Assembly: GCF_000970045.1 (NCBI RefSeq)
Contig: NZ_CP009505.1
Coordinates: 3,806,808 to 3,870,807, forward strand
DNA from: Methanosarcina sp. MTP4
Lineage (GTDB): Archaea; Halobacteriota; Methanosarcinia; Methanosarcinales; Methanosarcinaceae
DNA length: 64,000 nt
Direction of reading: 5' to 3'
Shown piece after piece: positions 45,276-47,077 of the stretch (position 1 is the stretch's first letter; each line of letters begins with the position of its first letter). Under the pieces are notes generated by a model. It was given only the letters and a program-made list of their open reading frames with translations, ran no database searches and was not told where the DNA came from. The translations under genes were made by a program, and so were the position numbers.

Positions 45276-45739
45276 TACTCTGCGTAATTAGAGGTATCTT
45301 GATAAATATTTTACGTATTCATCCGGGCGTGAACAGCGTTATTGTGAACTACCCCTGGACCAAAGACCCAGGAATTTTACGCTCCATTTATAAATATATT
45401 TCATGCCACCCGCACTATACATAATTATTTTATACCATATGTGCCCGGTAGTAGGAGCGAATTTTAACAAATCTGAGTTATATAATTGAAGAAATATAAG
45501 ACATTTCAGTCCATTCATTATGCAAAGATGTGATAAATCTGAAAGTAAGGAGAAAAAAGATTAAACAAAACGATTTAACAGGACAGCTGATGAATGGAAA
45601 AAAATTGCATGGGTATTTGAAGACAAAATTGTTTAAACACCGCGAAACATGCAAGTAGATGATCGAGAATCAGTGTCGGGAGAACTTATTTAAAGGTCGC
45701 TAAATAATTTAATGCCGATAAAATTTTAAAATCGTTTAG

Positions 45740-45862
45740 GTTATATACACCCATAACATAGAAAGAGAGTTAGCGGTTGAAGAGTTAAGGGGTTTTCTCT
45801 TACGCCGCTGGGGTTGAATCACACAGTTGGGAGCCAGATCAGAGGTGGCAAAAGGCTCCCAA
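45740..45862 (+). ncRNA. structured RNA candidate A (twin of candidate B)
   Basis: TATA element GTTATATA at 45740-45747. Exactly 32 bases after its start, at 45772, begins hairpin 1 (AGCGG...AAGAG paired with CTCTT...CCGCT, loop TTAAGGGGTTTT). Then the linker TGGGGTTGAATCA (45809-45821), then hairpin 2, TTGGGAGCC (45827-45835) with GGCTCCCAA (45854-45862) and a loop ending CAAAA. The predicted RNA is ~95-105 nt, starting near 45765. Its twin at 46301 keeps promoter, linker and loops while stems differ and still pair. No open frame. Confidence 0.65.
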
Positions 45863-46300
45863 TTATTATAAAATAAAAGAATTCATTACACAAAAGTTTT
45901 TGAAAGTACCTGCAAACCATATCCACCTTAAAACTATATAATCTTTTTGAAATGTCGAACAGGTTAAGAAATTTGTGAACTTTTTTAAGAAAATATACAA
46001 CATTACTGATGTTCAGACTCCTTGACGCCCAGCAAAAGAAAAGAAAGGAACTAAATAGAGAAGTTTTTATTTAAAAAATAAACGTATTTACAAACTCTTT
46101 TCAGGAAAAACGAAGAAAAACGGGGAAACAAAGAAAAAATCTACAAAAATAGAGGACCTTAAAGGGACTTTAAAAATTACGATGGCGATAAAATATTTAA
46201 TAACAACAAAATATTTAATGGCTACGAATATTTTAATATATGTCCAAAAATTTAAGGAAACCCAATATTTGAATATTGATAAATATTTTATGTCGTTTAT

Positions 46301-46420
46301 GTTATATATTCAAAAGTCGTAGGAAACAATGCAGATTGAGAGTTTTAAAGGGTTTCCTCTCAATCTCATGGGGTTGGATCATTGATAGGGACCGGCGGAC
46401 GGGAACAAAAGGTCCCTATC
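46301..46420 (+). ncRNA. structured RNA candidate B (twin of candidate A)
   Basis: TATA element GTTATATA at 46301-46308, preceded by TCGTTTAT as in candidate A (TCGTTTAG). Hairpin 1 begins 32 bases after the start of the TATA element: AGATTGAGAG (46333-46342) pairs with CTCTCAATCT (46357-46366), loop TTTTAAAGGGTTTC. The linker is ATGGGGTTGGATCA (46368-46381). Hairpin 2 is GATAGGGACC (46384-46393) with GGTCCCTATC (46411-46420) and a loop ending ACAAAA. Both stems are perfect 10-bp helices whose sequences differ from those of A at most positions, which is covariation in support of an RNA. Confidence 0.68.
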
Positions 46421-47077
46421 TAACTAATCTGGCAATTATCGGAAATATATATTGACTTCTTTTTTATTTTGATTTTGCTACTGGTTTTGAAATGAATATT
46501 TTTATTTAAACAGGGCATCTATTTTACAAATAATAATAAGTCCAGTGTCATAAAGTAGATAATCTGGAAAGAGTTACACCCCTGACCCGGCTGTTATGTC
46601 AAAATCTCCCAGGACATACAGCTAAAATTGTCCAATTTTTATAAAGTAACTAATCATAAATAAAGCTTATGAGTGAAACCTCAAGTGAGCAATATATTTT
46701 CAAAAGAAGACCTGTTTTAAAAAGTTACGTGTACCGGCCCGGGTATGGCAACAAAAATTCCAGCACCCTAAAAGGTTTCCAGCCAAAGAAATCTCAGTAG
46801 GGGAAAACAGGAACAACCGTCACCTGCTAGTTTGCACAAAAGGTAAGAAGGGAGGAAATTAATACGAGATCAATCTTTTGTAATATGATTGAAATACAAA
46901 GTTTATAAATAATAACCCACAAATACGGAGAACAGTTTCATAAAAATTCATCATATCACTCAAAATTCAAAAATCAGGAATTTAACAATTGGAATTTAAC
47001 AATTGGAATTCAAAAATTGGAATTCAAAAATTATGAATTAAAAATCAGGAATTCAATTTAGAAAAGGAGCTAAAAAC

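Follow-up and report, generated by a model that had tools for sequence, protein, structure and literature searches.

Two RNA genes between a FilR1-type regulator and an FmdE-like gene

The window analysed here is a 64,000-nucleotide stretch of the 4.21-Mb contig of Methanosarcina sp. MTP4. Within it, a divergent gene for a FilR1-type HTH regulator (PF08350; 44487-45275, minus strand) and a downstream gene for an FmdE-like protein (PF02663; 47078-47659, plus strand) enclose two plus-strand RNA genes, copy A at 45.77 kb and copy B at 46.33 kb, and read in the sequence the starts of their first hairpins are 561 bp apart. The promoter of copy A, TCGTTTAGGTTATATA (45732-45747), was recognized from the sequence and represents a motif found at near-fixed spacing in 75 of the 82 class I copies described below; that of copy B, TCGTTTATGTTATATA (46292-46307), was recognized from the sequence and by motif scans. 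Counting in the sequence from the start of TTATATA, hairpin 1 begins after 31 nt in both copies. As judged from the TATA spacing and downstream T runs, the predicted transcript of A extends from 45766 to 45901 (about 135 nt, with the T run 45897-45901 at its end) and that of B from 46326 to 46465 (about 140 nt, T run 46460-46465).

Both RNAs are built from two hairpins joined by a linker. In copy A, hairpin 1 (45772-45809) carries the loop TTAAGGGGTTTT at 45785-45796 and is followed by the single-stranded linker GGGGTTGAATCA (45810-45821; TGGGGTTGAATCA as read) and by hairpin 2 (45825-45864), whose loop contains ATCAGAGGTGGCAAAA and is near-invariant in A orthologues. In copy B, hairpin 1 (46333-46366) has the loop TTTTAAAGGGTTTC at 46343-46356, the linker TGGGGTTGGATCA occupies 46369-46381, and hairpin 2 (46384-46420) has the loop GGCGGACGGGAACAAAA at 46394-46410. 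The first hairpins were delimited by sequence, folding and covariation, the second hairpins by the same three and by alignment, and the linkers by sequence, alignment and a test of pairing with the 3' tail. The linkers share the text TGGGGTTG(A/G)ATCA, and CAAAA ends the hairpin-2 loop in A and in B. Folding recovers both hairpins in both copies, and segments of about 105 nt are some three standard deviations more stable than their dinucleotide shuffles (z -2.96 and -3.22). The matching promoters, equal TATA-to-hairpin distances, G-rich loops, linker and CAAAA loop end that the earlier note had reported are all present in the sequence, and its reading of the pair as paralogous structured RNA genes is supported by promoter scans, covariation and relatives in other genomes, with a size of about 100-140 nt.

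Covariation across copies

We aligned 81 class I copies automatically; the 3' arm of hairpin 2 was one column off in type A sequences and was re-registered by hand. In this alignment, 91.7% of the cells of the two stems are paired, and 120 cells are changed on both sides; shuffles give 35 such cells, and slid registers give 6 to 44. Pair 9-33 of hairpin 1 is G-C in 45 copies and A-U in 35, and pair 66-98 of hairpin 2 is G-C in 47 and A-U in 29. With the hand register, all ten positions of the type A hairpin 2 pair in 18 of 18 sequences. Compensatory changes between types are seen in hairpin 2 at 63-101 (A-U/G-C), 66-98 (G-C/A-U) and 61-104 (G-C/U-A/A-U). Across the aligned copies the stems drift, and the loops and linker are kept. 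The earlier proposal that both stems pair in A and B, with compensatory sequence differences, is confirmed by reading and by covariation, and both stems persist, with covariation, in dozens of further genomes. The linker, claimed to be single-stranded, indeed has no conserved pairing with the 3' tail. Copies A and B are, in our judgement, almost certainly genes of a conserved structured RNA family. A kissing interaction of the two loops was rejected as a family feature: values of z -1 to -3.6 occur in some B and C copies, and the average for A copies is z +1.3.

A family of sibling RNAs in Methanosarcina and two close genera

The two copies noted earlier are not the only ones in this genome. 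BLAST with the two segments gives six promoter-bearing copies (class I), namely A, B and those at 1964316, 2333541, 2454546 and 2456966, and in addition reduced elements (class II) that keep hairpin 1 and the linker only, mostly followed by T-rich stretches; copy B as the query recovers other copies. At least four class II elements are present (697206, 2592877, 2593121 and 2730448), with a degenerate fifth near 2593260.

A covariance-model search, which the earlier note had suggested as a check, was run with a model (R1) of hairpin 1 and the linker built from the own-genome copies, and it found matches in 41 of 112 genomes of the taxonomic family. These include all four genomes of the own genus, 30 of 31 in the genus taken as Methanosarcina and both genomes of a third genus; matches in three others are weak (E 2e-4 to 5e-3). 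Genomes of the three RNA-bearing genera hold 1-18 copies each in the R1 search. A class-wide R1 scan of 238 genomes added just three further single weak matches (E 2e-5 to 3e-4), and the exact A-type linker and stem pattern occurs in 21 named contigs, all of them from Methanosarcina, Methanosarcinaceae or unclassified Euryarchaeota. In an anatomy sample of 95 copies scoring above 25 bits at 47 loci, we distinguish type A (orthologues of the window's copy A, strongly conserved), type B (comprising the window's copy B and related copies), type C (with the linker GGGTTGGATCGCAGG and the hairpin-2 loop GAGAATAGGGACTC) and, lastly, class II. As far as detected, this is a family of sibling small RNAs specific to Methanosarcina and two close genera.

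Promoters, tandem units and gene order

In the 75 class I copies that have it, the promoter consists of a T-rich stretch followed by TCGNTTATG(A/T)TATATA, and the distance from the TATA part to hairpin 1 is 29-33 nt in nearly all of these. Five of the seven copies that have no such promoter are the second member of a tandem dimer, in which the units lie about 97 nt apart and only the first has a promoter (loci L127, L135, L140, L146 and L147); one more adjoins a partial duplicate (L117), and the last is L142. Allowing up to one mismatch, the motif occurs at 16 places in the own genome versus 3 for a reversed control, and six of the 16 are the class I RNA genes.

In Methanosarcina as in the own genus, the A/B pair is flanked by the FilR1-type HTH gene on one side and the FmdE-like gene on the other. 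Copy A is found at all these syntenic loci, and no B was detected at L126, L132, L143 and L149. The main neighbours of type C clusters are an Orn/DAP-decarboxylase-like gene and a 2-oxoacid:ferredoxin oxidoreductase pair. The earlier note had considered that the region might prove to be a decayed mobile element. Multiple copies, intergenic location and tandem duplications are what one would expect of a repeat or of a decayed mobile element with chance inverted repeats, but the pair keeps the same gene order in two genera, a strong argument against mobility or decay. Furthermore, the promoter and stems are conserved, the stems with covariation, and similarity between copies is limited to the promoter and the RNA, with the exception of one longer duplication (L067/L069). 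We find the repeat or mobile-element explanation scarcely credible.

Comparison with known RNAs

Functions are known for few small RNAs of archaea, and the M. mazei ones that have been described act by base pairing. The earlier note could not match the RNAs to a named one; in Rfam 15, the window has no match at the gathering score, and the segment 45700-46500 none up to E 1. Features of C/D or H/ACA guide RNAs are missing from A and B (no C box, no CTGA, no ACA after hairpin 2), and a literature search for stretches of the RNA sequence gave no relevant match.

A listing of M. mazei sRNAs comprises 242 entries (PMC5867862, table 1). Among the characterized ones, sRNA154 is an intergenic, two-loop RNA that is conserved in Methanosarcina and acts by base pairing (PMC5867862), and its promoter has an NrpR operator (PMC3177094). 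Copies A and B are likewise intergenic, two-looped and conserved in Methanosarcina. However, their family is multi-copy, and the literature searched contains no multi-copy description of sRNA154; the NrpR operator GGTA-N6-TACC that marks sRNA154 does not occur with up to one mismatch in 45600-46500, and the sRNA154 locus, MM3337-MM3338, does not fit the family. Another well-described RNA, sRNA162, is 191 nt long, has three stem-loops and a 39-nt single-stranded linker, and is antisense to the MM2442 leader (PMC3510493). Together with sRNA171 it resembles A and B in being paralogous and in having a single-stranded linker between stem-loops, but A and B have two hairpins and a linker of about 12-15 nt. 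A further M. mazei RNA, sRNA41, which targets ACDS, is reportedly oligo-paralogous; the A/B family is without complementarity to ACDS-region starts in a crude test.

These comparisons bear on a possible identity of the family with sRNAs already numbered in the M. mazei RNA-seq study, sRNA41 perhaps among them; such an identity would be compatible with either mechanism discussed below. Loci with such promoters are likely to be among the 242 listed sRNAs, and the oligo-paralogous nature ascribed to sRNA41 would suit a member of the family. Still, sRNA162 and sRNA154 differ in their defining features, and the crude test gave no complementarity to ACDS-region starts. We regard such an identity as rather unlikely. 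The family is uncatalogued in Rfam 15 and set apart from sRNA154 and sRNA162 by their published features; sRNA41 may be a member, and parts of the family may already carry M. mazei sRNA numbers. Genetic tools are available for M. mazei and M. acetivorans, members of a tractable methanogen genus, and a strongly conserved multi-copy family that is outside Rfam and has a promoter type of its own is open to direct tests there.

Protein binding, antisense pairing or coding

Nearly all copies show GGG(G) in the linker and in the loop of hairpin 1, and many B copies and most C copies show it in the hairpin-2 loop too. We tentatively favour, at somewhat less than even confidence, a trans-acting sponge RNA that titrates an RNA-binding protein. 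Transcribed from its own promoter and folded into two hairpins with a GGG-containing hairpin-1 loop and a G-rich single-stranded linker, the RNA would display its G-rich elements, in several copies, in trans to such a protein and would titrate it by a logic like that of CsrB/RsmZ, with an unrelated partner. The genomic context suggests one candidate partner, either the small DUF1699 protein itself or a regulator of it. Tandem dimers and repeated GGG motifs would fit a decoy RNA. CsrB also comes as sibling copies (PMC6262261). The likeness to CsrB, RsmY and RsmZ extends to G-rich motifs that recur in loops and single-stranded stretches and to some tandem modules; the motif of the A/B family, in contrast, is GGG(G) and not GGA. 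CsrA is a bacterial protein family and, to our knowledge, a CsrA/RsmE protein is not to be expected in archaea. If protein binding is true, this would be a sponge RNA in archaea.

Trans-encoded antisense RNAs, in which a short part of a loop or of the linker pairs with several mRNAs at or near ribosome binding sites, are a quite conceivable alternative, to which we give roughly a third of our belief. Pairing of this kind is described for sRNA154 and sRNA41 of M. mazei. The M. mazei sRNAs with a described function work in this way (PMC5867862, PMC3510493), conserved unpaired segments exist, and the 3' side of hairpin 1, GGUUUCCUCUC, resembles an anti-ribosome-binding-site sequence, although its UUUCCUC is partly within the stem. 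The earlier note had offered the linker as an antisense seed or a protein-binding site and proposed a search for its complement in mRNAs. That search lends the seed no support: TGATYCAACCC, the 11-nt complement, occurs seven times in the own genome, each time in one of the RNA copies themselves, shorter seeds being possible. The exact complement of the A hairpin-2 loop is found at A alone in seven of eight genomes, with scattered one-mismatch sites; in the eighth, A has a variant loop. Such complement searches would miss seeds of 6-8 nt. For 7-mers complementary to the unpaired parts there is no enrichment at 263 gene starts, assigned by an automatic rule preferring Shine-Dalgarno sequences, compared with positions inside genes. 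At ACDS-region starts, chosen automatically for a crude test, the duplex energies of loop, linker and tail segments equal background. Because fully kept segments are without a genomic partner of that length, we rate protein binding slightly above antisense pairing; that the RNAs work mainly through a protein is a cautious working assumption, and the linker as the protein-binding site is possible and the better of the two options. A likeness of the linker to the 16S rRNA 3' end (TGCGGCTGGATCA; 45809-45821 in A, and 46369-46381 in B with two mismatches) was set aside because it is gone in C-type copies; three TGCGGCTGGATCA loci are taken to be the rRNA genes.

The earlier statement that no open frame crosses the RNAs is incorrect for copy B, which is spanned by a 59-aa frame with a TTG start (46276-46455) and contains an 18-aa ATG frame from 46329. 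The latter begins near the predicted 5' end, and sRNA154 has been reported with a leaderless 20-aa frame (PMC11456600), both of which would suit a short coding frame as the role of these RNAs. Yet copy A has no such ATG frame, and in most relatives neither B frame is conserved: loop lengths vary by a base or two, and C-type copies and most B orthologues have lost the ATG or have a stop after it. A coding role is very improbable.

UGGGG in DUF1699 leaders

We compared 71 leaders of DUF1699 genes (loci L073-L082, L139 and L256-L315). At the Shine-Dalgarno position, UGGGG is found in 30 of 39 genes from RNA-bearing genera and in 0 of 32 from genera with the RNA absent or weakly matched, a contrast that may be a single evolutionary event, since the three genera that carry the RNA probably form one clade. 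Among other genes of RNA-bearing genomes, 3 of 262 have such a leader, and as a general mark of genes beside RNA clusters it is not conserved outside DUF1699. The own genome has ten DUF1699 (PF08004) genes, and three of them have class II elements on their 3' side, the closest 95 to 250 bp past the stop codon, a link that may be one event copied with the gene. In genome G096, one class II element follows DUF1699, and others are in clusters without it. DUF1699 itself is present in 109 of 112 genomes and so is wider than the RNA.

A single UGGGG-reading protein acting on both the RNA and the DUF1699 leaders would explain this pattern. UGGGG is the only motif common to the two, and no pairing of the RNA with the UGGGG leaders was found. 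An RNA-binding fold for DUF1699 found no support: its model (mean pLDDT 84) shows no sign of one, and none of its structural matches is convincing, the best PDB hit having E 0.037. It would be a long shot, and we consider it unlikely, that up to 18 sibling RNAs per genome titrate a UGGGG-binding translational regulator that would also act on the DUF1699 leaders (and, in some species, on 3' elements), as an archaeal sponge system and independent counterpart of CsrA/CsrB.

Additional observations

The class II elements near DUF1699 (L070, L071 and L072) consist of hairpin 1 and linker followed by T-rich stretches such as GTTTTTCCGTTTTT, and related class II clusters occur at L137-L139 of another genome. 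In one Methanosarcina genome, a HEARO (OMEGA-type) RNA directly follows the B copy (L123, 6208-6412). Two of the 16 places with the promoter motif, at 113926 and 3389095 of the own contig (L216 and L222), stand in front of genes for fused corrinoid methyltransferases, which by our reading of their sequences resemble MtsD/MtsF. Beside one of the two is a regulator similar to the HTH gene of FilR1 type that is divergent from A/B. As a lead only, this hints at a link of the RNA family to the use of methylated compounds.
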